This document shows positions 37,105-58,228 of a stretch of DNA of 64,000 nucleotides, piece by piece (the first letter of the stretch is position 1; the number at the start of each line of letters is the position of its first letter). Under the pieces are notes generated by a model. The model did no database searches. It saw only the letters and a list, made by a program, of their open reading frames with translations, and was not told the origin of the DNA. Source of the DNA: an uncultured Bacteroidia bacterium. Its GTDB lineage: Bacteria > Bacteroidota > Bacteroidia > Bacteroidales > Prolixibacteraceae. The position numbers were made by a program, and so were the translations under genes. The stretch is taken from NCBI GenBank assembly GCA_903850335.1, contig CAINLJ010000013.1, positions 1 through 64,000 of the forward strand, in the 5' to 3' direction.

Positions 37105-39186
37105 CTATTTTGTCCAGATGTAGCGGTAGTTGAATCGCCGGTTTGGAGCTGTGTCACCATCTGTACATAATGAAATCGGTGTTTTCAGGTCTGAAGCATT
37201 ATCGCTCCATTTAAAATCAAATATGAATTTTGTCCCGGTTAGTCCGAGTAATTTTCGGGGAACAGACACCTCCAGTTTGTTCTCAGCGTACCTAAACTCT
37301 AAATCAGCTACCTTAATCCATGGATTTTCAGGGTGTGCAGGGTCAAAACGCATTAAGGTTGTTGTCTTTTCGTCCTTAATATTTTTATTGATAATAAAAT
37401 CATAACCAAACCATCCTGTTTCGGGGTTGTTGTCTGCGTCAATCAAAAGCAACATCCAATTGTTGCCATTGCAGGAGGTGAGTTTTCCAGCAGTTTCAGC
37501 ATAAAAACTGACACTTTGCTTATCAACGGCAACTTTACTGGTAATGATATCATTTCGTCCCGATTCATTTTTGTAATGTAATCCGCCGTACCCGTTATGG
37601 TCCCGATGCAAAACATCTCCTTTGGTATCCCTGAACTCATTAATCACTGTTTTCCAATCATCAAATTGTCCGTCCATTTTAACTGAATGCAGACCCTGCT
37701 GAACCGGAATGGGCCTGATTCCTTTGTATCGCCTGATATTCTGGGCCATCTGCATATAATAGTTATCGGTATAACCATCCATCATTGGCTGAATGCACCG
37801 ATTGAATTCAGAGTTGTACTGATCGACAAAAAAGAAAGGACTTTTACGGTGCATAAAGGCGAAATTATCCTGTTGGTATTTTCCAGCTGTCCATTCATTC
37901 CAGTCATTGATATAGAGCATTTCAGGATCACTTTTTAGTGCTTCGTTCCATCGGTCCTGAAAATAGATCCCGTACCCTTCTGGATTTTTAACGGTTTTAT
38001 TCAACCAGGGTACGTAGGCTGAATCCGGAAGATCATATTGATTGAGATGCGGCTCACCGGTTTCACGGCGCCATGATTTACCCACCAGGCTTGAAGGGTG
38101 CTGTGCAGGTGTAACCGCTGCCTCTTCCATTTTCCCATTATGGGTAGAAACCAGATCATCCGGATTCATTCCCATCACTTTTTGGTTCCCCAGATCATAA
38201 CCAAAACTCCAGTTATCTTCAGTTCCGACAAAACGGTTGCCGGCCCACTCATCGTAGCCCCACCACATCGTCCGTTTCGTAAAGAAGTTCTTCACTTCAT
38301 TCGTATAATCCTTATAGAATTCCTCTATATAGGCAGGATTCCCAAAATGGGGATTATTGACATCGGTTTTTGCCGCCGCATCATAATGTGGATTAGGTTG
38401 TTTGACTTCTTTGCCGTTTGCATCAAATTTGGGGGTGCCATTGTATAAAATCAGTGGCTTGCCATCCCAGTAAAACCAAAGATCAGGGAATTTTCTGGTT
38501 TTGTAAATCTTATCATAGAGGTCCTGAACAACTGTAATTACCGGACCATTAAATGCCCAGAAACAGAATTTTGGCACCTTATTCCCTTCAGCCTTCATCC
38601 TTTGCATCGTTTTAAAAAGGACTTCCCATTCATCCCAATATCTCACTGCATTGGTAACATCCATGATCAGTACATCGACCCCAGCATCGGTGAGCATCGA
38701 CATATCCTTACGAATCACATACTCATCCTGGCTCAGGAAATAGCCCATCTCCGGCTCTCCCCAATGGTAAGAAACTTCACTCCAGAGAGGATGTTTTGCA
38801 TCCAGACGGGCGGTTGGATCTGCCTTGTAAATTTTGGAGACATCAGCAGAATAGGGCACTTTGAAATTTTTATAATGGTCCTGTGTGTGCCAGGTGATAT
38901 AAAAAATACTCACGACCCGTCTTTTACATGTCTTGACAGGACCCACTTCCTGCATGCCCGGCATTTTCCGGCCAAGTGCGTCCGATGCCACCCAGGTATC
39001 GGAGTAGAGATCCCTGAAATAATTTTCTTCAATTGCCTTATCCACTGATTGGTTAGCGACAGTTTTTGAAGCCGCTGAATTACTTTTGACCCCGTTTTCT
39101 ACCCCACAGGCGGGTTGGGAAACGATCAACAAAGAAACTGCCAGTAGCAGCAGGAAAATATTCCGATAATCCAAATTATATTTCAT
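37105..39186 (-). CDS. GH71/99-like (DUF5010-type?) glycosidase with C-terminal CBM9-like domain
   Basis: IFYITWHTQDHY, YFLSQDEYVIRKDMSMLTDAGVDVLIMDVTNA, DLWFYWDGKPLILYNG, YINDWNEWTAG; C-terminal LLIDADNNPETGWFGYDFIINK...FDFKWSDNASD. Confidence 0.75.
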   Translation of the reverse strand: MKYNLDYRNIFLLLLAVSLLIVSQPACGVENGVKSNSAASKTVANQSVDKAIEENYFRDLYSDTWVASDALGRKMPGMQEVGPVKTCKRRVVSIFYITWHTQDHYKNFKVPYSADVSKIYKADPTARLDAKHPLWSEVSYHWGEPEMGYFLSQDEYVIRKDMSMLTDAGVDVLIMDVTNAVRYWDEWEVLFKTMQRMKAEGNKVPKFCFWAFNGPVITVVQDLYDKIYKTRKFPDLWFYWDGKPLILYNGTPKFDANGKEVKQPNPHYDAAAKTDVNNPHFGNPAYIEEFYKDYTNEVKNFFTKRTMWWGYDEWAGNRFVGTEDNWSFGYDLGNQKVMGMNPDDLVSTHNGKMEEAAVTPAQHPSSLVGKSWRRETGEPHLNQYDLPDSAYVPWLNKTVKNPEGYGIYFQDRWNEALKSDPEMLYINDWNEWTAGKYQQDNFAFMHRKSPFFFVDQYNSEFNRCIQPMMDGYTDNYYMQMAQNIRRYKGIRPIPVQQGLHSVKMDGQFDDWKTVINEFRDTKGDVLHRDHNGYGGLHYKNESGRNDIITSKVAVDKQSVSFYAETAGKLTSCNGNNWMLLLIDADNNPETGWFGYDFIINKNIKDEKTTTLMRFDPAHPENPWIKVADLEFRYAENKLEVSVPRKLLGLTGTKFIFDFKWSDNASDLKTPISLCTDGDTAPNRRFNYRYIWTK

Positions 39187-42477: not shown

Positions 42478-42912
42478 TTACCCGAATAAACGAAATTTAA
42501 CCGTCCACCTGGTAGTATCGCCATTTACATAGAAATCCATGATATTCCCGTTCTTCTGCATATTGTCGTTCCATTTGAACTCGATATCGATATCTTTTCC
42601 AACCAGACTCAGGATATCACTTCTGATCTCTAATTCGAGTTTATTGTTGACTGCAAATTTTGTCTCTGCCACCGGTTCCCACTGCCAATGGCCTGCAACA
42701 TTTTTCCCGACAATTACCTTGTTCCCTTTAGGGCTCAAACGGTTTACCATGAAATCATAACCTTGCCATCCAGTTGATTTATTTTGTTCAATATCAATGA
42801 ATAACATCATCCATTTGCAGCCGGTTACCGGAGTAAGCTTTTCGGCAGTTTCTGCATACAAATAAACCTTCTCATCATCACGTGCCACCTTAACCCCGAC
42901 AATGTCATTCCT
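42478..42912 (-). pseudogene. Orphan 3' fragment of a GH71/99-like gene (CBM9-like tail only)
   Basis: RNDIVGVKVARDDEKVYLYAETAEKLTPVTGCKWMMLFIDIEQNKSTGWQGYDFMVNRL...FKWNDNMQKNGNIMDFYVNGDTTRW; matches tails of the 37105 and 47167 genes, no signal peptide or catalytic region. Confidence 0.7.
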
Positions 42913-45157
42913 ACTGAATCAGGTTAGTATAAACGACTTCACTCCAGTTTAAAATTCCGATCACCGATTTATAGATATCAAAAACGGTATCCTCCTGAGT
43001 TGTTCCGGCTGCCTGGTAGGCAAACCAAACCGGTTTCTTTCCACCAGGGTCACTATTGTCATCTGGGAATCGGCGCAAACCGATACGCAATCCGCCCTCA
43101 GCCCTGTTATCAATCCAGTTGTGCCACTGAAAAGCATCAATCCCGTCGAGCGTTTCCAGTTTTTTCCAGGTATAGGCAAACCCGGCTGCCTGCTCCTTTA
43201 AGTCGAGATCGGAGTAAGTTCTCGAATTGGTTCCATTCTCTGATAGCCAAACTGTTCGCTTAATGCTCCCCTTATAAAGATTTTCGGACTTCTTAATCCA
43301 GGTATTCAAAACCTCAAGGTTTTTAAATGTAATCAATGGAGTGTTCAAACTAAATATTGCATCGATATCGTTCCAGGTTTTGGGCTCAAAAAGGTCCTCA
43401 GGATAAGGATGATAGGCCAGTCCCCACTGGAAATCACCCTCGGCTCCCGAATAATCAACCAGTGTTTTCAGCATACTTTTGGATGTATACATTGGCGTCC
43501 CGACTGAAGTTGTCCAGGAGTGGGTGAAGGAGGCAAATACTTCGCTGTTTTCATCATAATTGCGGACAATATTGTAGCACATCCGCATCGATTTGATATA
43601 AGTATCCATATAAACCAGCATTGGTTTATCGCCCATATTTGTCCAGGATATTCCTGCATCCACTTCATTGTGCATGATCCAGTGGTGGATACGGCCATAG
43701 AAGTTGTCAATGCGACAATAACGACCCGCAAGAAAATCGAGTGCTGCTGCATAGCAATTTATACTCTCATCAGTGGTCATATTTGGCATTGTAAAAATGC
43801 CTTCTGACGTGTAACTTGGATGCTGCAGCAGGTGTCCAATCTCAGGATCTGCGCATTGGGAAGCTGGTTGAATAAGAATAATCGCAGCCACAACAATATT
43901 CCGGGAATAAGCGGATTTCATTGTCCGGTCCAGTTCCTCCACCTGAGCCTGATCAAAATAGTAGGTTTTATCTCCGTAAGTATGCGCAAATGCATTACCA
44001 TGTAATTGCGCATACATAAAACTTGTTGGAGTAATATTCACTGTAACAGTCGAAATATTCAGGTCATCCAGGTCTGACTCAAACCCTCTGCTGATGGAAT
44101 AACCACCTAACCCCTTTTTAGTGGCCGGTTTTATTGAAGTCATTGTTTGAACTGGGGTAATCTGACTGGCATATTTGGCATGGGAAACTATCTCATCAGC
44201 TGTAGCTCCAATTTTTGCAATCACCCATTTCGACAAAAGCCGATCGTATTTAAAACCATTACGGGTGATATAACGATCTAAATTAGTTGAAAAAACAGGA
44301 GTACTTAATCCAACTTTATTTACAAATTTAGTGATTTGAGTCAGATGATCACCAGGGGTAATTTCGCATAGACTGAATTCTCCGGAACCGGAATAGTTTC
44401 CTTTAATAGTAATCGATGAAACACCAACATTCACTTCACTAATCAGTGAACTGTATGAAGCATTAAGATATTTATTAAGATTGGATTCAAGCGCCAAATC
44501 GTTTTTAATCAATTCGGCACGGGCCGACGCTGCAGCCTTTTCTGCCGCATTAAGGCCCCTCAGATAAATGTTTCGGATTTGAATCTTTAAACCTGTCTGA
44601 TTCCCAAAATCCATCCTTAAAAAATCACCCGCATTCCCCCAACTCAGCAGCTTAATTTCGCCGGTTAAATCGATGGAATATGAACTCCAACCAGTTGATG
44701 CAGGGACCAAATCTGTTTTAACAGAACGTGCTTCCGTAATTGGAGAGGCCAGGAAGATTTGCATAACGCCAATATCCGCAGAACATTGATATTCAAAGGT
44801 AAGCACCAATGAATCGGAAGGGTTCGTGGTATTGAGAGGATCCAGATACAGGTAAGGATCTGTACCCGTAGTAGTCAGTTCGTATTGATATGTAGTTTTC
44901 TGGCTTATTTGAATTTGATTACCAGATGTTAGTACAATATTCTGATACTTCACTGAATCTGTTGGTTTTACAACAGGTAATACGGGCTTAATTAACGCTG
45001 TCTTCTTGCAGGAGTCGAACATTAACGTCAAAGCAGGAAACAATAAAATCATAATGAAATATCGTAAAAGAGGACCTAATTTCACAGATATATTGTTTCG
45101 CAAAATAGTATCGGGATATTCCTTTGCATTATTAATTAAGGTCATTCTGCTGAACAT
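42911..45157 (-). CDS. DUF5722-like lipoprotein (putative glycosidase)
   Basis: MFDSCKK lipobox; GGYSISRGFESDLDDLNISTVTVNI, YGRIHHWIMHNEVDAGISWTNMG, WLSENGTNSRTYSDLDLKEQAAGFAYTWKK. Confidence 0.75.
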   Translation of the reverse strand: MFSRMTLINNAKEYPDTILRNNISVKLGPLLRYFIMILLFPALTLMFDSCKKTALIKPVLPVVKPTDSVKYQNIVLTSGNQIQISQKTTYQYELTTTGTDPYLYLDPLNTTNPSDSLVLTFEYQCSADIGVMQIFLASPITEARSVKTDLVPASTGWSSYSIDLTGEIKLLSWGNAGDFLRMDFGNQTGLKIQIRNIYLRGLNAAEKAAASARAELIKNDLALESNLNKYLNASYSSLISEVNVGVSSITIKGNYSGSGEFSLCEITPGDHLTQITKFVNKVGLSTPVFSTNLDRYITRNGFKYDRLLSKWVIAKIGATADEIVSHAKYASQITPVQTMTSIKPATKKGLGGYSISRGFESDLDDLNISTVTVNITPTSFMYAQLHGNAFAHTYGDKTYYFDQAQVEELDRTMKSAYSRNIVVAAIILIQPASQCADPEIGHLLQHPSYTSEGIFTMPNMTTDESINCYAAALDFLAGRYCRIDNFYGRIHHWIMHNEVDAGISWTNMGDKPMLVYMDTYIKSMRMCYNIVRNYDENSEVFASFTHSWTTSVGTPMYTSKSMLKTLVDYSGAEGDFQWGLAYHPYPEDLFEPKTWNDIDAIFSLNTPLITFKNLEVLNTWIKKSENLYKGSIKRTVWLSENGTNSRTYSDLDLKEQAAGFAYTWKKLETLDGIDAFQWHNWIDNRAEGGLRIGLRRFPDDNSDPGGKKPVWFAYQAAGTTQEDTVFDIYKSVIGILNWSEVVYTNLIQ

Positions 45158-45247
45158 TTTAGTTTAGTTATTTTCATTCTTCAATCTCTTTCAATTCTTA
45201 TAATGATTTTTAAAGGATCTTACTGTTTAATAAAAATATAAATTTGA

Positions 45248-47155
45248 TCACCTGATTTTGGGCAGCCATGTACACACCCTTTTCCCCGACCAACTGTTTA
45301 CGGAACTGTAATCAACCATCCGGATATATCCTTCAGTCGTCGGAATTTTAATCAGCAACTTATAAGACTGAGTGCTCCCACTGTCAGTCAACACGTTTAC
45401 ATAACGCTCCTTTGATATAATCGTGACTGGTTGATTAAAGTTTGCATCCATATTCTCATCTCTGGCCAGCACAACCGGACCTCTGACCACTGCCTGAAAA
45501 TTGTCTCCTGCACGATTACTGCCGCGTGGGGAATCGATAATCCTGCACCGCATATCCAGCGACAACACGATCTTGTCACCTGAAGCCCATTTCCGGTTAA
45601 TTTCGGCATATTTACCTGGAGTGGCTGAAACTGATTCTCCGTTAATTTTTAAGATAGTTGCTTTACTCCATTCCGGAATTCGCAACCGGATCGTGAATTT
45701 CTCAGATGCTGTCGGTGTAACTTTCAAAACAATGTCACCTGACAGAGGATAATTGGTTTCAATATCGAGTCGGACATTTTTTTTGTTTCTGGAAAGTGCA
45801 GTGGCAGAACCACTATTGTAAAGATTGATTACTGGTCCTGAAGCAGAATTCATCACAGCTACATAAGGGAGATAGGCCAGACCCATTGGTCCGTTCAGAT
45901 TACAACAGGTGACATAAACCCCGCCGACTATTCCACCCCAACCCTCCGGATCCGTTTTAACACCATTCAATAAATTGACATAACTAAACCCATCACCCGA
46001 AGGCTTCATCGCTCCTAAAAGTCCGTTATAAGTATATTTTTCTATCATTTCAATTGCCAGAGGGTCGCCGGTCAGACGTAAAATCTGGCTGCATAATTTA
46101 ATCCAGGTTACACCGGCACAGGTCTCCATCATCCTTTTTATTTCCGGATTGGTTTGTTCAAAAGCTGTATTGTCCCAACCTTCACCAAACACTGCCGGGT
46201 GATAGGGCTGATCGCCGCCGCCATTTCCAATAATGGTAATTTCGCTGGCTATAATATTATGATACAAGTTAATGAACGCCTGTTTCCAATGTTCATTTCC
46301 GGTTACCCGATAGTATTCCACCAACCCCTCAAACAGCGACATCATTTCATAAGCCTTTGGATAAACCCCTCCGATTTGTTCCGGTGCCTTGTTATTAAAC
46401 GCTTCTTCAATCATATTAAATCCTTTGGCACCACCTTCAATTTCAACAATATAATGGGCAAAATCGAGATAACGCGTGTACCCGGTCAGCTTATACAAAC
46501 GCAGGATTGGTTCAAGAACCGTGCTCGACTCAATATGATTTGGACTCCAGCCCTGATCGACAATCCGGGTTTTGGGAGCAGGACCTATCTGAGAAACGAT
46601 TCCATCGGCCTGATCAATCATTGCCTGCAAAACCTTTGGGTCTTTTTCCACCTGCATATAATATTCATCCAGTCCAAGTAAGACGTATTTCCGTTCCCAC
46701 AGGTCTCCACCTGGTCCATCAGGTTGTGTTGAAACATCGGAACAGCTGATCGTTCCATTTGATCTTCTTGTAGTCAAAAGATCGGCAACTGTAGTTTTTA
46801 GAATTTTCTTCAGTTCCGGATCCCGGGTGTATCTGTAAAACATACATCCAGAACGGACAGCTTTTCCCCACATCTCACCCTGTGCAAAAAAGGATCTGCC
46901 TGTTCGGAATTTTTCAACAAGTGCCGAATAAGGTACTAGGCCCTTGTTCCAGTGAGCGATTGAACACTGAATATAATCTTCCAGATAACCGTTGAAACTG
47001 ATTGAATTTGCTGCTAACGTATTAAACTGATCAGTTACCTGCACCCGGTTTTCCGATTTGAATGAAAAGAGAATAGTGGCAGGAAATGCGAATAAGATCA
47101 ACCGGATTATATGGTTACCAAAAAATTTGGTTAAAGAAGAGTTGAACATCCCCAT
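45248..47155 (-). CDS. GH127-like (DUF1680) beta-L-arabinofuranosidase family protein
   Basis: METCAGVTWIKL and VYVTCCNLNGPMGL motifs resembling the Glu/Cys zinc site of GH127. Confidence 0.82.
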   Translation of the reverse strand: MGMFNSSLTKFFGNHIIRLILFAFPATILFSFKSENRVQVTDQFNTLAANSISFNGYLEDYIQCSIAHWNKGLVPYSALVEKFRTGRSFFAQGEMWGKAVRSGCMFYRYTRDPELKKILKTTVADLLTTRRSNGTISCSDVSTQPDGPGGDLWERKYVLLGLDEYYMQVEKDPKVLQAMIDQADGIVSQIGPAPKTRIVDQGWSPNHIESSTVLEPILRLYKLTGYTRYLDFAHYIVEIEGGAKGFNMIEEAFNNKAPEQIGGVYPKAYEMMSLFEGLVEYYRVTGNEHWKQAFINLYHNIIASEITIIGNGGGDQPYHPAVFGEGWDNTAFEQTNPEIKRMMETCAGVTWIKLCSQILRLTGDPLAIEMIEKYTYNGLLGAMKPSGDGFSYVNLLNGVKTDPEGWGGIVGGVYVTCCNLNGPMGLAYLPYVAVMNSASGPVINLYNSGSATALSRNKKNVRLDIETNYPLSGDIVLKVTPTASEKFTIRLRIPEWSKATILKINGESVSATPGKYAEINRKWASGDKIVLSLDMRCRIIDSPRGSNRAGDNFQAVVRGPVVLARDENMDANFNQPVTIISKERYVNVLTDSGSTQSYKLLIKIPTTEGYIRMVDYSSVNSWSGKRVCTWLPKIR

Positions 47156-47166
47156 ATTTCTGTCAT

Positions 47167-49674
47167 TTATAAATTTACAATAAGTTTTCTTGTCTGGCTT
47201 GTTTCCCGATTACTGAAACGTATCATGTAAATCCCCTTGTTCTTAATAAAATCCATTGTAATACAATCGGATAATATAGAGTCAGGGTACCGTTTTTGCC
47301 ACAATACCAGACCTGACATGCTAAAGATGGTGATTTGTGAATCTTTTGAAGTTGCCCGGGGAAAAGTCAGGTAAAGGTTATCTTTGGCAGGATTCGGATA
47401 GATCAGAAATGAAGGAAGCGATATATTTGATATTCCCGTTATCACTTCAGTAAAATAATGGTAATTAAACCTTCCTGCCGGTGCGACATCCCCATTAACA
47501 TAGAAATCCATTACATTTCCATCTTCCTGCATATTATCGCTCCATTTAAATTCAAAATTCAGCAGTTTATCATCAGTTGCTCCGAGAATAGACCGCCCTA
47601 TTCGAATTATCAATGTCTTCCCATTTACAACATATTGCGCGTCCCCAACCTTGCTCCAGTTCCAGGTATTGTCACTTTTTTCAATCGTTGCGGTTGCACC
47701 TGGGTTTAACCTGTTAATTACATAATCATAACCCTCCCATCCGGTGCCCTTGTTCCGGTCAATATCAATAAACAGCCGCATCCATTTTTGGTCTGAACTG
47801 GCGGTTAACGAGTCGGCAGTCTCGACATAGAACCAAAGATAATCGTTATCGCGGGCCACCTTTGCAGATACGAGATCATTTCGTCCTGTAGCATTTGTAT
47901 AATTCAGAGCGTTACCTTGTCCGGGGTGATCGCGGTGCATGATGTTTCCTTTATAGGAATGGTAGACAGGTTCAACATTACTCCAGGATTTTGGGTCATT
48001 CATATCAATTGTTTGGGCGGCAGAGGCAACTGATTCATCCGGCATTCCTTTAAATTTCCGTATATTGCTAATTAACTGCATGTAATAGACGTCCCCCTTA
48101 TTTCCCCACGATTTTACCGGTTCGATATCACGGCTTTTCTCTGCCGAATATTCATCGACAAAAGCAAACGGTTTCACATCCCAGTCGAACCATCGTCCGG
48201 CGATCCACTCGTTCCAACCAGTGACAAATACCAAATCGGGGTCAATTTCTGTGGCACGTCCCCATTGTTCCTGAAAATTAAGACCGTATAACCATGCATC
48301 CGTGCGCATGGATTGTCCTACGGCTTTTGTATAGCTGCGGCCATAAGTCAGTGCTGTATTAAAACCGCTGGCATGTCCTCCGCTGGCATCGGAGGCATTC
48401 TGGGCCACACCAACTGTTGCCTGTTCATATCCCCCACCAGCTTTGGGTCCGTAACCGTGCTGGGGATAATTCTCCAGCCATCCCCACTGGTCATCGCGCG
48501 ATGGGCCGCTCATATAATCGGGTTGACCGGGGCGAAAGGTGAAAAAGGATTTCATTTTATTGATCACCTGCTGATCAATGCCGGATGTAACTGCAACAGG
48601 TGTATGAACTGTGCCGGAAGTAAGTGCTGTAAAATTGTATTCCGGATTATAGGATATTTCACTTTGGTAGCTACCCGACACCTGAATTCCGCCATAATAA
48701 CTTGTTACAGGATCGGAGCTGTCGGTCCATTTCCAGACACCAACCTGTTCGGTACCCTTGTTCAATACCCAGATATATTCACCGCTCCCCTGTATAGGGA
48801 ATGTCAGTATATTTTTATCATTATCGGCGAAATTGACAAAGGTTTTCGTCGCAATGGGAATACCGGAAATACTTTGAGCATAGCTGGTATTCAATTTATA
48901 TAATGTCAGGGTTATATTTCCGATACTATTTCCCCAACTGGGACATGATGTATTAATGGCATAAAAAGGAGACGTAGCGGTAAATCTCATTGCTGCAGAT
49001 CCATCGCCCTGACTAACCAGACTTTCAGGATAGGCCATGATTAGTGGTTTGCCGTTCCACATGAACCATAAATCCTTATATAATTGAGGTTGATAGAGTT
49101 CTGTGTACAATTCATTAAGTATCGAAAGAGAATTGGCACTTGCGCCAAAAGGGAGCAAAAAGCAAATCTGAGGGGTATTCACACCATCTTTTCTGGCCTG
49201 TTCCCATACTTTTAACAATACAGTATAGGAAGATTTCCAGGTGAAAGTTCCATTCGTACAATCGAAAAATACAACGTCTATACCAGCATCAGCAAGCATT
49301 TCGGCATGTTTGCGCAGTACCCATTCATCGGTTGTCCGGTAATAGCCAAATAACGGTTCATCCCACCAAAAAACTCCCCCGGTAAGTCCCAGCCATGCCG
49401 GATGACTGGCATCGGTCGCAGCAAGTGGGTACTTTTTTAAAATTTCTGTAATGTTCAGTACAGGTGAAAAGGTTGCATTATCATCAGTGTGCCAGGTCCA
49501 GTAAAAAATACCTGCCAATTTATTCCGCTGATTGCCGGTTTCACTTTTCATAGGCAGTTTTCGGCCAAGGGCATCGGTCGCTGGTAACCCATTGCCATAA
49601 TTGGGTGCTGTGACCTGAGCCATTAAATTAGCAGTGATAACAAAAAGTGCAATTGATGACAATAGTTTCTTCAT
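47167..49674 (-). CDS. GH71/99-like glycosidase with inserted ~130-aa module, CBM9-like domain and C-terminal T9SS-type sorting domain (track ORF 47167..49824; start at MKKLLSS)
   Basis: IFYWTWHTDDNA, WVLRKHAEMLADAGIDVVFFDCTNG, FVTGWNEWIAG; tail LPSFLIYPNPAKDNLYL...GIYMIRF...RKLIVNL. Confidence 0.8.
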   Translation of the reverse strand: MKKLLSSIALFVITANLMAQVTAPNYGNGLPATDALGRKLPMKSETGNQRNKLAGIFYWTWHTDDNATFSPVLNITEILKKYPLAATDASHPAWLGLTGGVFWWDEPLFGYYRTTDEWVLRKHAEMLADAGIDVVFFDCTNGTFTWKSSYTVLLKVWEQARKDGVNTPQICFLLPFGASANSLSILNELYTELYQPQLYKDLWFMWNGKPLIMAYPESLVSQGDGSAAMRFTATSPFYAINTSCPSWGNSIGNITLTLYKLNTSYAQSISGIPIATKTFVNFADNDKNILTFPIQGSGEYIWVLNKGTEQVGVWKWTDSSDPVTSYYGGIQVSGSYQSEISYNPEYNFTALTSGTVHTPVAVTSGIDQQVINKMKSFFTFRPGQPDYMSGPSRDDQWGWLENYPQHGYGPKAGGGYEQATVGVAQNASDASGGHASGFNTALTYGRSYTKAVGQSMRTDAWLYGLNFQEQWGRATEIDPDLVFVTGWNEWIAGRWFDWDVKPFAFVDEYSAEKSRDIEPVKSWGNKGDVYYMQLISNIRKFKGMPDESVASAAQTIDMNDPKSWSNVEPVYHSYKGNIMHRDHPGQGNALNYTNATGRNDLVSAKVARDNDYLWFYVETADSLTASSDQKWMRLFIDIDRNKGTGWEGYDYVINRLNPGATATIEKSDNTWNWSKVGDAQYVVNGKTLIIRIGRSILGATDDKLLNFEFKWSDNMQEDGNVMDFYVNGDVAPAGRFNYHYFTEVITGISNISLPSFLIYPNPAKDNLYLTFPRATSKDSQITIFSMSGLVLWQKRYPDSILSDCITMDFIKNKGIYMIRFSNRETSQTRKLIVNL

Positions 49675-49759
49675 TGACTTAATTAGTCCTTTAGAGGTTT
49701 TTTTATAGCTTAAAAATATTTCTAAACAAAGCGATAATTCTTCCTTTAATGCAAAAAAA

Positions 49760-49855
49760 CAGGGAGACTTTTGACCTGATTTTGAATAACTGCAATTCCA
49801 TACTCCCGTCCTTTTCCCTCCCATTCACTCCTTTGAAGGGGTTGAGGAGATAGGG
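49760..49855. repeat. Intergenic repeat copy A
   Basis: ggagacttttgacctgattttgaataactgcaatt...ccctcccattcactcctttgaaggggttg; aligns with 50840-50935. Confidence 0.6.
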
Positions 49856-49937: not shown

Positions 49938-50726
49938 TCAGTTATTAATCACCTGCTTAAGGTTCGGAATAATTATACTCCCGGCTTTTCTGACATTGAC
50001 GAATTTTTCAAGATCCCGCATGGATATAACTTTAAAATGATTTTCCGAAAGGTATTTCAGATATTCCCTGAACAATTCAGGAGAGATAGTTACCCACGGA
50101 TGATCAATATCTGGAACCCCGTGGATGGTCAGGACCACGATTTTGCCATTTCCGGCCTCCCGGAATGCCCCCATAATTTGTTCTTTATTTCCTGCTGTAG
50201 TCGCCCAGCTTGGCACCAAAAGAGGATGATCGGTCTGAGGATCATAGACCTTGCTCCCTCCAACCCTGGCAAATTTGTAGCCACTTTCAATAAGCACCTC
50301 CAGGGAAGATTGGTTTAGGTCGTAACCCGGATAGGCAAAATTCACAGGTTTGGAAATATGCAGAGAATCACATTTATCCTCAATGAATTTGAGTTCATCC
50401 ATAAATTGCGCTTTCGTCAGCTTGCTCACTGGAGGATGGGTCCGGGTATGGCTAGCGATTTCAAAACCCATTGCATCGAGTGCCCTGATCTGCCTCCAAT
50501 TCATATATTTCGAACTGTCCTTAAAATTGGGAGGGAACTCACAGACAAAAAAAGTTGCACCAAAACCGTATTCTTTTAGTAGAGGAGCAACGATGGAATA
50601 ATGGCTTGCCGGGGCATCATCAAAGGTTAATACGACCAGTTTATCCGGAATTTTGTTTTTAAATACCCCCGAATTTCCAGATAAACAGATGGTTAATATT
50701 AGCAAGAGCAAAAATAATTTCTTCAT
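49938..50726 (-). CDS. Polysaccharide deacetylase, CE4 family
   Basis: LVVLTFDDAPASHYSIVAPLLKEYGFGATFFV, EIASHTRTHPPVS. Confidence 0.92.
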   Translation of the reverse strand: MKKLFLLLLILTICLSGNSGVFKNKIPDKLVVLTFDDAPASHYSIVAPLLKEYGFGATFFVCEFPPNFKDSSKYMNWRQIRALDAMGFEIASHTRTHPPVSKLTKAQFMDELKFIEDKCDSLHISKPVNFAYPGYDLNQSSLEVLIESGYKFARVGGSKVYDPQTDHPLLVPSWATTAGNKEQIMGAFREAGNGKIVVLTIHGVPDIDHPWVTISPELFREYLKYLSENHFKVISMRDLEKFVNVRKAGSIIIPNLKQVINN

Positions 50727-50960: not shown

Positions 50961-53135
50961 TTAATCCAACCAGCCTGGGTTCTGTATAATTCCGGCAACC
51001 TTATTAACTTCAGCCTGGTCAATTGGATACATTAACCATTTTGAGGAAGAACAGTTTCTGTCAGCAAATCTGAAGCGGTTGTAAGTAAGGTTTGTACCAG
51101 ACTTGGTAATTCGCATGCCAGTAACAAATTTATCGGTCTGATCCAGAATCTTCCAACGTCTGACATCAAAGAAACGATGCTCTTCGAAAGCCAGTTCAAT
51201 TCGACGTTCGTTCCTGTACTTCGTTTCAAAGGCGTCTTTAGCCATGCCAGCGGGAAAAGCGGGCATTCCTGCTCTTGCACGAACTGCATTAACAGCATCT
51301 CTGGCGCTTAAAGTTAAACCACCAGATGGAATAGGAACGTCGGGGCCGGCTGCCTGATTTGCAGATTCAGCGAAGTTCAGATAAAGTTCAGCCAAGCGGA
51401 ATAATCGGATAGCTCCATCTGCACTATTACTTAAGGTCGATTTATAATTATTGAATTTACGCTGGTAATATCCTGTGCGGGTATTAATGCGGCTAATGTC
51501 AGAGATCTCTTCCGCACCACCCACAAATGTCTCTACAACTTTACCATCTGAGATTCCGACCGGAGTCTGCGAGGATCCGGTTGCCAAAAGGGTATAAACA
51601 CCCGGAGCATAGGCAATACCGCTTCGGTAATTGCCTGAAACACTTGATCCATTTAAATAACTTTGGGAAGTTCCGTTTGTTTCATTCCATTTCCAAACGC
51701 CTACAGTTTCAGTTCCATGACTAAGTTCCCAAACATAATCCCCTGCAGGTTGTGCTGCAAATATAAGTTCAAGATTAGCGCCATCGGCAAAATTCACAAA
51801 AGTATTTGTTGCAATGGGGGTTCCTGAAACACTCGAGGTGTAGGAATCATTAAATTTATAAAGGGATAAAGTAAGGTTTCCAATAGAATTTCCCCAACTT
51901 GGACAGAGCGTACTAATAGCAGTAAAAGAATTTGAAGCCGTAAATTTCATACCGGCGGTTATCAAAGGCTGATCCAGATATCTTACCGCACCATTATAGT
52001 AAACAGAAGCATAAAACCTTGGATCACGACCCGCATAAGGATTAGAAGGATCATAACCGGAAGCACTGTTTATGATAGGCACTAACTTACTTGCATCAGA
52101 ATATCCGGTTATTGGAGCTTCGCCGTTGGCCATTTCATAACTATCTACCAGGTCCTGAGTAGGACAAGGACCTGTTCTGCTCATACTTGGATTTGTAGGC
52201 ATCCCTGCATATCTCCAGATTGCCATCTGGACGCCACTTTGATAAATGGTCTCCTTATCAACAGCCCTTTGATCATTGGAACTGGTAATGAAATAAAGTG
52301 CATAAGGATTCTGGGCTATATTGGAAGCGGGAACCACATCAAAAAGTTTATAACCGCCATTTAAGATACATTGGGATAATGCCTCTGCATTGATTTCAGC
52401 TGCCATTGTCCAAGTATATGTTCCATCGGACCAAAGAGGACTTGCCGCATAAGTAACCGCCTGTGATTTAATAGCATAAGCTACTGCACGGGACATATAT
52501 CCAAATTGATTGTCATAGATATTCCATGAAAAACCATCCTGGGTAGCAGGATAAGTTAGCGCCTTATCGCAGTCAGCCAAAATAAATTTAACAACTTCGG
52601 CAAAGGAAGCTCTCTTATCCTTTGAGAAATCATGATTAATTGCCAGTGGTTTATCAAAAATAGGGACGCCTCCATAACGTTTAATCAACTGTAAATAATA
52701 GAGTGCACGCAAAGTGAGTGCCTGGGCTGTCCATTGCCCTTTTTCGGCATCTGTGGCGTATACAGTTGCAGTTTTGATACTTTCAATAAACACATTGCAT
52801 TTGCGAATACCAGTATAAAGGCTTCCCCATGGACTACCGTCGGCCGAATACGTTGGATAGGTTAAAGTGGTAATACTTCCCCCATACCAGTTAATATATC
52901 TTGAACCCGGAGTAACATCATCTGCATCCTGAGCTTCGTCGCTGAACGACGCCCTGTCCATATAGGGAGCCGGACAGTAGCCATAGCAAGAATTGAGATA
53001 ACCCCGGGTCCTGTTATAATCATTAAAGACCTGGTCCATAGATATCCTCCCGTCAGATTGCAGATCCAGCTTATCTTTACACGATAATATGAGGAACGTC
53101 GCAAATATGAGTGTAAATATTTTATATTTTTTCAT
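50961..53135 (-). CDS. SusD-like protein carrying an inserted ~130-aa module (track ORF extends to 53162)
   Basis: Lipoprotein signal LILSCKD; RLAELYLNFAESANQ, YRNERRIELAFEEHRFFDVRRWK; insert at ~51553-51950. Confidence 0.9.
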   Translation of the reverse strand: MKKYKIFTLIFATFLILSCKDKLDLQSDGRISMDQVFNDYNRTRGYLNSCYGYCPAPYMDRASFSDEAQDADDVTPGSRYINWYGGSITTLTYPTYSADGSPWGSLYTGIRKCNVFIESIKTATVYATDAEKGQWTAQALTLRALYYLQLIKRYGGVPIFDKPLAINHDFSKDKRASFAEVVKFILADCDKALTYPATQDGFSWNIYDNQFGYMSRAVAYAIKSQAVTYAASPLWSDGTYTWTMAAEINAEALSQCILNGGYKLFDVVPASNIAQNPYALYFITSSNDQRAVDKETIYQSGVQMAIWRYAGMPTNPSMSRTGPCPTQDLVDSYEMANGEAPITGYSDASKLVPIINSASGYDPSNPYAGRDPRFYASVYYNGAVRYLDQPLITAGMKFTASNSFTAISTLCPSWGNSIGNLTLSLYKFNDSYTSSVSGTPIATNTFVNFADGANLELIFAAQPAGDYVWELSHGTETVGVWKWNETNGTSQSYLNGSSVSGNYRSGIAYAPGVYTLLATGSSQTPVGISDGKVVETFVGGAEEISDISRINTRTGYYQRKFNNYKSTLSNSADGAIRLFRLAELYLNFAESANQAAGPDVPIPSGGLTLSARDAVNAVRARAGMPAFPAGMAKDAFETKYRNERRIELAFEEHRFFDVRRWKILDQTDKFVTGMRITKSGTNLTYNRFRFADRNCSSSKWLMYPIDQAEVNKVAGIIQNPGWLD

Positions 53136-53174
53136 ACTAAATAATTTTTCAGATTTATACATTTACCCGACCGA

Positions 53175-56100
53175 TTAAAAAGAGACTTTTACACCTAAGT
53201 TGAATACCCGGTAAACTGGGAATGTGGTGTAGCTGCCCTCCGGTCCAAAGTCTTTGGACTTCATTTTATCCCATGTAATCAAGTTCTGTCCGCTTAGTAA
53301 AACTCTCACTCTCGATACAGAAATAGCTTTCGCCACTGAACCGGGGAGTGTATAGGCCAACTCCAGATTCTTTAGACGTAAATAAGACCTGTTATAGTTG
53401 TAGTAATCACTTGCCTGTTGATTAACGGTCTGGGCCAGTGAAAGTGCGGGAGCTGTAATTTTAGCTTTGCTGGCATATCTCTCAGCTGTCCATGCATTTG
53501 CATGCAATGCACCAAAAACCCCATCATAATCAGTTTCATATACACCTTGTCCGGAGTAAATTGTAGAATATTTCCCAACACCCTGGAAAATTAAACTTAA
53601 GTCAAAAGACTTGTAGGTAGCACCACCCCTGAAAGCATAAGTTACCAGAGGGAGGGCACCATAACCAATCGGCGCTTTATCCCGTTCATCAATCTTTCCA
53701 TCTTTGTTCAGATCCTGATATTTAAGGTCGCCAACCCTAGGGGTTCCAAAACCATACACCAAAGTATTTGAATTCAATTCAGCCTGGGTATTAAAGAATC
53801 CGTTCCCATTACTGTAATCTACTAAATAGCCAAACTCCTGTCCATATGAATAACCTTCCTGAACTTTTCTATAGGTGTAATCTGCAGATTTTACAGGCTC
53901 ATTCACCTTAACAAGGGTATTTTTCGCATAACTAAATGTACCGCCAAAGCTGATTGTCAGATTGTGATTGATCATTTTATTGTAATCAGCAGTAATCTCA
54001 TAACCTTTATTTTTGAAAATACCGACGTTGCTTTGAGGATAATTGGCTAAAGGAACACCCTGGTAAAGTGGAACAGTTGCTACTGCACTGACAATCATAT
54101 TATCCATCTGTTCCTTGAAAACGTCTACTGAGACAAAGAGTGAATTGAAAAACCCCATATCCAGGCCTAAGTTTTGTTTTGTTGATACCTCAGCCTTTAT
54201 GTTAGGATTACCAACCTGATTTTCATTGACTGTGTACTGCAGATATCCGATAGTGCCACCAGTGGTAACCGTGATGTTGTCAAGATAAGCAAAACGGGCA
54301 AGACCACTTTGGTCGTTAGCTGTCTTACCGTATGAACCCCTTATCTTCAGATTACTCAGCCATTTAAGATTGGCCATAAACTCCTCATTTGATGCCACCC
54401 ATGCCACTGACGCTGAAGGAGTTGTAACATACCTGTCGCTTCGTGCGTACTGCTCTGAGCCTGAGTACCCAACGTCAAATTTTACCAGATACTTGTTATC
54501 GTAACCATAAGTACCTTCTGCACCTGAACTTATCCTGTTATACGGTAGCAATCCAGGGATGGTATTATCTGCTTTGGTCAGATTTTGGTAGAAAAAGTAA
54601 GCCATACCCCCAATCTGGTGTTTATCAAAGTTGCGCTTATAGTTTAAAGCTGCATTGTAGGTCAGATTGTAATAGAAAGAAGAAGATTTACCATAAGCTA
54701 AAGGGGTATTGTTTTCTGATCCTTTCTTTGTGAATATAAGTGTATCAGGATTACTTGAACGCAACCAGCGCTCATAATTCTGAGTTGTACTTAAGCTTCC
54801 TACCGAGTTGGTCTGATAAGCAAATATGCCGGTCAGATTCAGTCCTTTTGTAAGAAAACTCATATCCAGGTCAAGCCCAAACTGGGAGGTAATATTGGTT
54901 ACTGTGCTCCTGATATACCCCGAACGATTCAGCATTCCATAGGTAGGGTTGGCAACACGTTCTGTAGTGATCACATGACCCGGAGTAACTACGGCACCGG
55001 TTTTAGCATCAAGAAGATCCGGTGTTGCAGGCCCGTACATGGTAGGGGGAATCTGGAAAAGACTCGCATAAATATCCGCATTACTTGAACCGGCTGTCCG
55101 TTCTCTTTTAATGTTACCACTTAACCGGACATAAGCTTTCAGGTATTTATTCAGGTTCACATCAACATTTGAGCGATAATTTATCCAGGTATTGTTTGCG
55201 TCAGGGTTATATTTAGTCTGATCTGCAATAAACTGACCACCCTGATGCATAAAATTGATATTTGAATAATAACGCACTTTATCATTTCCTCCGGTTACAT
55301 TAATGCCAACACGCTGCATGGAAGCAAAACTCTTCATGTATCTGTTGTACCAGTTATTATTGGGATACATGGGATCATTGCCTGCGCGATATTTTGCTAT
55401 TTGATCAGTACTGAAAAGATAGTTCTGACCATGCCCGTCATTGTACGCAGCCTGATTTCTCAATTCCGCATAATCTCCTGAATTATAAAATGCTGGCTGG
55501 GTAGATACCTGCTGCATTGATTGATCAAGGCTAGCAGTAATTTGAGCCCCCCCCTTTTTACCGCGTTTGGTGGTAATGACCATCAACCCATTTGCACCCT
55601 GAATACCATAGAGTGCCTCAGTTGAAGCATCTTTAAGTATTGTTACAGATTCGATTTCATTGGCACTGATGTAATCAAGGGTCTGGTTACTGTTATAAGC
55701 AACAATAATTCCGTCGATCATTACCATTGGGCCATTTCCTCTGGCACCTGAAAGACCACGTATATATAAATTGGTATTTGCCCTGGATAATTCAGAAGTG
55801 GTTTCCTGAGTAGTTAATCCTGCAAGACGTCCGGCAAAAGCCATTGTCAGGTTTGCAACCGGCGATTTTTCGAGTTCCGTGCCACTCACTGTTGCTACAG
55901 ATCCCGAAATATCATTTCTCAGCTGGGAAGTATAACCCAACTGAATCAATTCACCCTTTTTGTGGGCGTCCCATCTCAGCTGAACATCAATCCGTTCATT
56001 GTCTCCTGTGGATACCTTTTTGGTGGTATATCCATAACCGGAGAAAACAAGCTGCTTGATTTCAGAATTACTGATGGTGTATTCACCCTTTAAATTGGTA

Positions 56101-56294
56101 GTTGTGCCGATTTGGCCACTTTCGTCATTAATTGTTACACCGGCCAGTGGTTTTCCAAATTCATCAGTAACAATCCCATTGAAAGAAGCCGCCAGCTTCT
56201 GCGCACTAACTGTTGTTCCCAGGGAGAACATAAGCATTAACGCCAGCAGCAATGTTCTTTTAATCATTAATTTATGTATCATATGATTTATCAT
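53175..56294 (-). CDS. SusC-like TonB-dependent receptor
   Basis: NGIVTDEFGKPLAGVTINDESG, IESVTILKDASTEALYGIQGANGLMVITTKRG, barrel ending VFNLGVKVSF. Confidence 0.94.
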   Translation of the reverse strand: MINHMIHKLMIKRTLLLALMLMFSLGTTVSAQKLAASFNGIVTDEFGKPLAGVTINDESGQIGTTTNLKGEYTISNSEIKQLVFSGYGYTTKKVSTGDNERIDVQLRWDAHKKGELIQLGYTSQLRNDISGSVATVSGTELEKSPVANLTMAFAGRLAGLTTQETTSELSRANTNLYIRGLSGARGNGPMVMIDGIIVAYNSNQTLDYISANEIESVTILKDASTEALYGIQGANGLMVITTKRGKKGGAQITASLDQSMQQVSTQPAFYNSGDYAELRNQAAYNDGHGQNYLFSTDQIAKYRAGNDPMYPNNNWYNRYMKSFASMQRVGINVTGGNDKVRYYSNINFMHQGGQFIADQTKYNPDANNTWINYRSNVDVNLNKYLKAYVRLSGNIKRERTAGSSNADIYASLFQIPPTMYGPATPDLLDAKTGAVVTPGHVITTERVANPTYGMLNRSGYIRSTVTNITSQFGLDLDMSFLTKGLNLTGIFAYQTNSVGSLSTTQNYERWLRSSNPDTLIFTKKGSENNTPLAYGKSSSFYYNLTYNAALNYKRNFDKHQIGGMAYFFYQNLTKADNTIPGLLPYNRISSGAEGTYGYDNKYLVKFDVGYSGSEQYARSDRYVTTPSASVAWVASNEEFMANLKWLSNLKIRGSYGKTANDQSGLARFAYLDNITVTTGGTIGYLQYTVNENQVGNPNIKAEVSTKQNLGLDMGFFNSLFVSVDVFKEQMDNMIVSAVATVPLYQGVPLANYPQSNVGIFKNKGYEITADYNKMINHNLTISFGGTFSYAKNTLVKVNEPVKSADYTYRKVQEGYSYGQEFGYLVDYSNGNGFFNTQAELNSNTLVYGFGTPRVGDLKYQDLNKDGKIDERDKAPIGYGALPLVTYAFRGGATYKSFDLSLIFQGVGKYSTIYSGQGVYETDYDGVFGALHANAWTAERYASKAKITAPALSLAQTVNQQASDYYNYNRSYLRLKNLELAYTLPGSVAKAISVSRVRVLLSGQNLITWDKMKSKDFGPEGSYTTFPVYRVFNLGVKVSF

Positions 56295-56320: not shown

Positions 56321-58228
56321 CTACCAACCTGTATTTTGCCAATCTGTACCTGTACTGGCTTTTAAGGCGTTTGCCTCATTCAGCGGAATAGGTAACCAGA
56401 GCCACTTATTGGTGTAATTCAAACGCTCATTGGCACGAACTGTACGACGGGCATAGGAATAAGTACCATCAGAATTTCGTGTAATTGCCATGGCAGTAAC
56501 CCAACGGTCTGTCTTTGAAAGATCCCCGGTAGGCAGTGACCAGCGGCGTATATCAAAATAACGGTTTTCTTCCAAAGCAAGCTCGACTCTGCGTTCATTC
56601 CTGATCCTTAGAATTAAATCCTCCTTAGATAAGGATGAGGGTAAATCGGGCATACCCGCTCTGCTCCTGATCTCATTTACAGCTGTGGTAGCTTCATCCA
56701 ATACTCCCGCTTCAGCGGCAGCCTCTGCAAAATTCAGTATTATTTCACCCAGACGGAAAAGTTTGTAATTGGCACCTCCTACCGGATTATCATTTCCTGC
56801 ATTGGGATGGAGAAATTTCCTTTCAAAATAACCTGTACGTGTTGCCTTTCTTGTAGTTGCATGGATCCCGGTTTGTGGTTCACCAATATAGGTAGAAATA
56901 ATTCTGGTTCTGTTGCCTGCTGATGCCGGATAATTCTCGAATGATTGCGGAACTTCAGGAAAACTCCAGGAACATTTTCTTTTAGATCCATTATAATAAA
57001 TAGAGGCATAAAAACGGGGATCCCTGTTTGCATAAGGGTCAGTCGCAGAATATAACTTATTGGCAGAATTGTAGTTCGGCTGCAGATGTTGATCATCAAG
57101 ATAAGGGTTTGCCAGATTAAGAATAGGCTGCCCATCGCTTGTTTCATAAGAATCAACCAACTCCTGTGAGGGGCATGTCCCCGATTTGTAGCCATCCTGT
57201 GCGCCAATACCATCAATATCCCAGATATTACCCTGACCATCGCGGCTCTGATAGATTGTCTCCTGGTCTACCGGAGTGGATGAATAAGCCATTGAATTGC
57301 AAAAATATTCATTGTAGAGCGCTGCATGGGTGTCCTTATTCGTTCCTATATAAGCCACATCTGAAAGAAAAGTCTGCGGAAAATTCACATTATTATAAAG
57401 CTGGTAACCATTTGCCTTCAGATTTGCCAACGAGGTTTTGTTTACTGTATAAGCCTCCTGCCAGTAATTCTGCCCGCCATTGTATAGCGGACTTGCGGCA
57501 AAAAGGATCATTTTCGATTTAATCGCTTCAGCCATTGCTTTATTAACCCGACCGGCTTCACTCGCGGTGGTTATCCTCCAGGGTAATTCGGCAGTTGCCA
57601 GAGCCACGTCACAATCTGAAATAATGAATTTTACCACATTGTAATAACTCTCCTTAGTTAATTTGGAGAAGTTGTCAGAATAGTTAAAAGGTACTTTTTC
57701 GATTGCCAGTGCAGGTCCAAACCATTTTAACAATTCTGAATAATAATATGCCCTGAGCAGGTATGCTTCTGCTTTCCAACGTTTTCTATCGGTTTCGCTC
57801 AACACGGTAGCTTTGTCAATACGACTAAGGAATACGGTGCAATTGCGGATGGAATTCCAGTATCCAGCCCAATAATTTCCATTATTTCCATCTGTGTTAC
57901 CCCATCCTCCATCTCTCAGTGCGTGACTGCTTGCAGAAGCACCACCATTATACATACTGCCTGACACAAGGGATGGTTCAGCCTCAGCGTCGGTATCCCA
58001 TGCTTCATCGCTGGCATCAACGGGACCCCTCATCCAAAAGAAATATCTTGTCCCTTTTGCAGGCATGTTCGTATAGCAACTATTCAGGAAAGCACCCACT
58101 TTATCATTGTCGGCAAAAACCTGATCCATGGTCAATTTACCGTCGGGCGCCATATCCAACGCCTTTTTGCATGAACCTAAGGTTATTATCAATAATATTA
58201 GAGGTAAAACGATATATTTAATTTTCAT
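56321..58228 (-). CDS. SusD-like protein
   Basis: Lipoprotein signal LGSCKKA; RLGEIILNFAEAAAEAG, IRNERRVELALEENRYFDIRRWS. Confidence 0.94.
   Translation of the reverse strand: MKIKYIVLPLILLIITLGSCKKALDMAPDGKLTMDQVFADNDKVGAFLNSCYTNMPAKGTRYFFWMRGPVDASDEAWDTDAEAEPSLVSGSMYNGGASASSHALRDGGWGNTDGNNGNYWAGYWNSIRNCTVFLSRIDKATVLSETDRKRWKAEAYLLRAYYYSELLKWFGPALAIEKVPFNYSDNFSKLTKESYYNVVKFIISDCDVALATAELPWRITTASEAGRVNKAMAEAIKSKMILFAASPLYNGGQNYWQEAYTVNKTSLANLKANGYQLYNNVNFPQTFLSDVAYIGTNKDTHAALYNEYFCNSMAYSSTPVDQETIYQSRDGQGNIWDIDGIGAQDGYKSGTCPSQELVDSYETSDGQPILNLANPYLDDQHLQPNYNSANKLYSATDPYANRDPRFYASIYYNGSKRKCSWSFPEVPQSFENYPASAGNRTRIISTYIGEPQTGIHATTRKATRTGYFERKFLHPNAGNDNPVGGANYKLFRLGEIILNFAEAAAEAGVLDEATTAVNEIRSRAGMPDLPSSLSKEDLILRIRNERRVELALEENRYFDIRRWSLPTGDLSKTDRWVTAMAITRNSDGTYSYARRTVRANERLNYTNKWLWLPIPLNEANALKASTGTDWQNTGW

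Follow-up and report, generated by a model that had tools for sequence, protein, structure and literature searches.

The window, i.e. the whole stretch of 64,000 nucleotides analysed here, carries a gene cluster with two SusC/SusD pairs and genes for GH127, DUF5722, GH106 and rhamnosidase-like enzymes as well as for a GH71/99-like enzyme. The latter has a segment in common with one of the two SusD proteins. M1 is the name given here to this 132-aa SusD segment and to all segments homologous to it; M2 denotes another module, which occupies the same SusD site in relatives. The features considered are the following:

50961-53162, minus strand: SusD-like lipoprotein with M1 (SusD_RagB, E 8.6e-47; SusD-like_3, E 6.2e-14)
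51555-51950, minus strand: M1 copy in this SusD, residues 405-536, matched to the enzyme copy and to HMM matches in relatives
~51540-51965, minus strand: whole SusD insert that holds M1, ~142 aa, residues ~400-541, delimited by alignment with the empty-site orthologue of genome G025 and with M2-bearing orthologues
53175-56294, minus strand: SusC-like TonB-dependent transporter, partner of the M1 SusD (from position and sequence reading)
56321-58228, minus strand: second SusD of the cluster, without the module, used as control (SusD_RagB, E 1.4e-52; alignment)
47167-49824, minus strand: GH71/99-like enzyme with internal M1, CBM9-like C-terminal part and T9SS sorting tail
48592-48990, minus strand: M1 copy inside this enzyme, residues 279-411, 55% identical to the SusD copy
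37105-39186, minus strand: GH99-like paralogue without the module, used as control (Glyco_hydro_99, E 3.7e-6, below the curated cut-off; alignment)
42911-45157, minus strand: DUF5722 protein (PF18989, E 3.1e-119; 398.8 bits vs. a cut-off of 30.5)
44543-44959, minus strand: N-terminal M2 copy of the DUF5722 enzyme (phmmer E 9e-29 against M2 of the G010 SusD)

The SusD host lies well over the curated Pfam cut-offs, with 160.6 bits vs. 23.1 for SusD_RagB and 53.1 bits vs. 27 for SusD-like_3. Its probable start is at 53135 (MKKYKIF...), and the SusC-like gene, identified by reading, is located directly upstream on the same strand. Within the protein, M1 is placed between 'RDPRFYASVYYNG' ('RDPRFYAS-YYNG') and 'VETFVGG...TRTGYYQRKF'. 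The SusD and enzyme segments are identical at 55% of 132 aa (E ~2e-43, tblastn against the window). When the two whole proteins are compared, blastp yields a single match, 48% over 170 aa (E 8e-42), which corresponds to the module and its edges. The window genome encodes exactly these two M1 copies. An initial annotation had proposed that SusD and the 47167 enzyme share a module with about half of the positions identical, and both peptides it quoted are indeed present. Of the span it gave, 51553-51950, the end is correct and the start lies two bases off, the true start being 51555. It had been unable to name a family, and none was found: M1 has no match to any family, including the named CBM families, in Pfam up to E 10, nothing better than E 0.55 by sequence in the PDB, and no NCBIfam match when the whole SusD and enzyme proteins were searched. 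M1 is hence not a described domain that SusD proteins routinely carry. Searches for M1 among plasmids, for spread by plasmids, and among viral contigs did not return a relative.

In the enzyme, the 885-aa frame is probably over-extended. The true start would be 49674 (MKKLLSSIAL..., residue 51), since the start codon of relatives corresponds to residue 51 and L048 encodes an orthologue of 834 aa. The sorting tail is matched by Por_Secre_tail (5e-10) and TIGR04183 (4.2e-12), and the CBM9-like C-terminal part was assigned from sequence. PF16317 (Glyco_hydro_99) does not match the enzyme, and the module-less paralogue 37105 scores 26.8 against the cut-off of 33. All aligned enzyme copies share a 'WNE' motif, which may correspond to the acidic residues that act in GH99 catalysis close to where the barrel ends. 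The enzyme M1 follows 'GKPLIMAYPESL' ('GKPLIM') and precedes 'FFTFRPGQPDY'. In five close module-less paralogues, 'GKPCIMGYPDNLTDSPE' is joined directly to 'FFTFRPGQPDY', and alignment shows that the paralogue 37105 of the window lacks M1, too. The segment 'GKPLIM' ahead of the insert is probably a barrel strand. If the enzyme is a (beta/alpha)8 barrel like its GH99-like relatives, an insert behind a strand would be on the active-site side.

The insertion into SusD is equally clean. Among the 20 SusD_RagB matches in the window genome, 19 are in frames of at most 646 aa, and the focal protein alone is longer. At the insertion site, the solved homologue 3qnk, a protein of 517 aa, leaves no space for a domain of this kind. 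In a 607-aa SusD orthologue (G025:C240), which is 86% identical to the window SusD over the 391-aa N-terminal part, the site consists of the 12-aa linker 'AVRFLNQPMGKK'. Alignment also confirmed that the neighbouring SusD 56321 is devoid of the insert, as had been claimed from reading. With a module-less orthologue and a module-less neighbour, the segment is not integral to the common SusD fold. M1 behaves, based on its clean junctions in SusD and in the enzyme, as a discrete module within proteins that act on carbohydrates, and this is extended by a third host (see below). The empty-site SusD of G025 precedes three genes with sulfatase-like sequences (L099, e.g. 'ILVLLTDDQRWDALGYAG'), identified by reading, so that this module-less orthologue may serve a different, sulfated substrate.

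When all 140 genomes of the family were searched, M1 was found in 11. Three further carriers came from the 295 genomes of the order sample, and M1 was absent from 395 others in the phylum sample. Very weak matches in L003, L014, L015 and L016 were dropped as chance after inspection. One M1 enzyme is located on a Chloroflexota-labelled contig (L026, DYKV01000224.1, titled Anaerolinea sp.); the T9SS-like tail of the enzyme points to misbinning of this contig. The third host comprises propeller-like lipoproteins of ~493 aa with an internal M1, whose GH130 and GH43 matches are below the cut-off. A search for module-less propellers among 61 relatives returned only propellers already known to carry M1; here, it is the internal position of M1 that suggests an insertion. 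In the two close relatives G092 (C9) and G085 (C206), SusD, enzyme and propeller each carry M1 in one locus. Each of the five M1 SusDs is accompanied, in its genome or locus, by a different protein that has M1 as well.

Relatives differ from the window elsewhere in the cluster, too. In G092, the M1 propeller gene (L048:4742-6220) is located between the DUF5722 and GH127 genes, which in the window are 90 bp apart (45157-45248); the window genome has no propeller copy. Near its DUF5722 gene, G092 has a full-length module-less GH99-like gene (L048:142-1989). In the window, an orphan frame of 146 aa (42481-42918, minus strand), which resembles the C-terminal domain of GH99-like enzymes ('RNDIVGVKVARDDEKVYLYAETAEKL...'), sits between the DUF5722 and GH106 genes and is the apparent remnant of a decayed gene. 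A polysaccharide deacetylase (PF01522) is encoded between SusD and the enzyme in the window (49938-50726, minus strand), a WbsX-family protein (PF14307, L048:10730-11899) at this place in G092, and nothing in some other relatives. It seems to be a second place at which the cluster varies.

The AlphaFold2 model of M1, computed from eight sequences, is all-beta (pLDDT 69, pTM 0.71). Foldseek did not find any match to it at E <= 0.001; the best hit had an E-value of 0.009, and TM-scores did not exceed 0.45. Among the weak matches are LecB, CBM6, CBM32/F5/8 domains and the CBM of a pectate lyase, the CBM-like ones with E >= 0.03. The top two are phage baseplate proteins, and capsid proteins also belong to the best weak matches. 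The AlphaFold2 model of the whole SusD is poor (shallow alignment, pLDDT 45.5); it draws the insert as strands and the remainder as mainly helical. M1 is an autonomous accessory module and, on weak fold evidence, most likely a beta-sandwich of the carbohydrate-binding type. We infer that M1 would bind a glycan, that its copies may have a common ligand, and that products might be handed over.

The SusD site is not reserved for M1. In the focal clade, five rows have M1, seven have M2 and one is empty. M1 occupies the site in the SusDs of the window, G092, G085, L024 and G102. M2 is present in the second copy of G025 and in G010 and G016, and a more distant form of M2 in G138, G035, G054 and G101. 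The empty site belongs to one SusD copy of G025. The two G025 copies are 83-89% identical at the DNA level on both sides of the site, where one has 12 aa and the other a 158-aa stretch with M2. They are located on two separate short contigs of an assembly that is 83% complete and 6% contaminated. Because of these short contigs in an incomplete assembly, the copies may originate from two strains; a strain mixture would not weaken the comparison as such. A tree built from the SusD flanks, with the site left out, requires five changes among the three states; in it, the SusDs of G102 (with M1) and G016 (with M2) form a sister pair at 100/100. The SusD loop accommodates between 12 and about 160 residues. 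The earlier idea that a mobile module was grafted onto both a lid protein and an enzyme is borne out by the module-less relatives, the clean junctions, the third host fold and the three states of the site, and both grafting and exchange at the SusD site are well supported. It is highly probable that an exchangeable accessory module in a SusD loop describes the anatomy correctly.

M2 is homologous to the N-terminal part of DUF5722 proteins in the window and in relatives. The M2 HMM, which includes the window copy, matches the N-terminus of the DUF5722 protein in the window with 4.9e-57. M2 also forms the C-terminus of a BACON-domain lipoprotein that adjoins the M2-bearing SusD of G101. In five of the seven genomes with an M2 SusD, a second M2 is found on a DUF5722-sized protein (DUF5722 was confirmed in G016). 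In a sixth, the second M2 is on lipoproteins, and the assembly of G035 has no second copy at E <= 1e-5. M1 and M2 were considered as one family, which was rejected with an hhalign probability of 0.9%. M2 does not match any family in Pfam or, by sequence, any entry in the PDB. A 1317-aa T9SS protein (L154:3883-7833, G014:C121) contains three tandem M2 copies and Flg_new repeats, and phosphodiester glycosidases carry M2 (L155). M2 is a wider module family that is apparently undescribed. The company it keeps, i.e. DUF5722 enzymes, phosphodiester glycosidases, a BACON lipoprotein and a tandem triplicate, is typical of binding modules. Both M1 and M2 are candidates for new binding-module families.

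The M1 tree unites the SusD copies in a single group that lies among the enzyme copies, and it sets the propeller copies apart (96/97). At 59/91, the single SusD clade and its nesting among the enzymes are weak. The enzyme copies are spread over more lineages. SusD and enzyme copies have a C-terminal extension in common ('LTSG..HTPV') that is absent from the propeller copies. The nesting, the wider spread and the extension lend modest support to the enzyme as the more likely source of the SusD module. The transfer would have been a single old event, with vertical inheritance and replacement thereafter. That the G102 SusD recaptured M1 independently, from the enzyme of its own genome, was considered and found unsupported, as this M1 groups, weakly, with the remaining SusD copies. 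For the SusD M1, dN/dS between the window and G092 is 0.088 (flanks 0.038 and 0.052), and for the enzyme M1 it is 0.189 (flanks 0.047 and 0.115). These low values mean that the module is under purifying selection and maintained as protein.

How could such a module act in SusD? M1 was grafted into one SusD loop, probably from the surface-secreted GH71/99-like enzyme of the same polysaccharide utilization locus (PUL). The loop would serve as a socket; it can be empty, hold M1, or hold M2, which is also present on a DUF5722 enzyme or on a surface lipoprotein adjoining SusD. If lid and enzymes have one binding module in common, a single glycan could be held in the enzyme cleft as well as where the SusC channel opens, and products would thereby be passed over locally from enzyme to channel. 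Cleavage might be kept beside the SusC mouth, and the lid would gain an extra capture site. Exchange of the module could retune the lid to whatever the PUL enzymes bind. That the loop is a socket for binding-type modules of its own cluster's enzymes, by which lid and enzymes hold the same glycan, is the explanation we consider rather likely. More tentative, and possible rather than probable, is the further-reaching proposal that the loop is a dedicated exchange site at which the lid adopts the binding module of its own PUL enzymes with matched specificity, and that swaps re-target PULs.

Among the other explanations, docking has the best standing, although it is unlikely: The SusD, enzyme and propeller copies might associate with each other or share a partner around SusC. 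This would agree with the presence of M1 on as many as three proteins in a single locus, all secreted or at the surface, and with an exchanged module, M2, that is likewise common to a co-encoded protein. However, M2 is also found as a tandem triplicate on a T9SS protein and on phosphodiester glycosidases, for which no link to SusD was shown, the weak fold matches of M1 include sugar binders, and no docking partner domain was seen. Slightly less likely still, the grafts might be by-products of recombination within the locus that are tolerated in the loop and have no special function. Although a loop that tolerates such different lengths and an orthologue that manages with an empty site are what one would find in this case, purifying selection on the SusD M1, retention of the module across genera and the fact that modules present on neighbouring enzymes have filled this one site repeatedly all argue against it. 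That most homologues have the segment as a regular element of their SusD fold is practically out of the question: The region does vary among SusD proteins, and one SusD-like protein has a specific ~63-residue region, G382-G444, which may lie elsewhere in the sequence (PMC9599597), but the 12-aa linker of the G025 orthologue refutes this reading, and the frame lengths in the window genome and the structure 3qnk contradict it as well.

If a lid is able to host the binding module of an enzyme and to swap it, at a fixed site, for that of another enzyme, evolution has a concrete path along which a PUL can keep capture and cleavage matched. SusD proteins are usually treated as single-domain lids with the specificity in their own surface, and the role of SusD binding in uptake is debated. 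The natural matched pairs, i.e. the same SusD with a different or no module, would allow a direct test of this role. A search of openly accessible journal papers did not reveal any SusD with a module of its own PUL's enzyme or any exchange at a SusD site, and, within the same scope, no paper on DUF5722 was found.

Outside the insert, the host is an ordinary member of SusD_RagB (PF07980). It departs from the norm of this family by the ~142-aa insert and the alternative occupants of one loop. With the beta-sandwich lectins and CBMs (LecB, CBM6, CBM32/F5/8), M1 has the all-beta model and a weak Foldseek resemblance in common; it differs from them in that neither a structural match at E <= 0.001 nor a sequence match in Pfam or the PDB connects it to a known family. 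Modules inserted into enzymes are already known: In the Xyn10C-like GH10|CBM4 xylanases of xylan PULs, inserts of this kind have been demonstrated to assist in binding and degradation (PMC7848910). There, as probably here, binding modules are inserted in a (beta/alpha)8 enzyme encoded beside susC-susD. The xylanase inserts differ in that they are a tandem pair from the named family CBM4, whereas M1 is unrelated by sequence to any CBM named in Pfam, and no SusD copy of the xylanase module is known to have been reported (PMC7848910). Certain SusD-like proteins fail to bind glycan by themselves, a lack for which other binding proteins compensate (PMC7157763, PMC9599597). Like SGBP-B in the SusE position and the SusD-like SGBP-A, the M1 SusD would capture glycan at the surface beside SusC. 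The SGBPs have their binding domains on separate lipoproteins, whereas in the present case SusD itself contains a module that an enzyme has as well (PMC7157763, PMC9599597). The PUL literature already supplies both halves of the model: CBM inserts in a barrel enzyme beside susC-susD on the one hand and SusD-like proteins that rely on other binders on the other.
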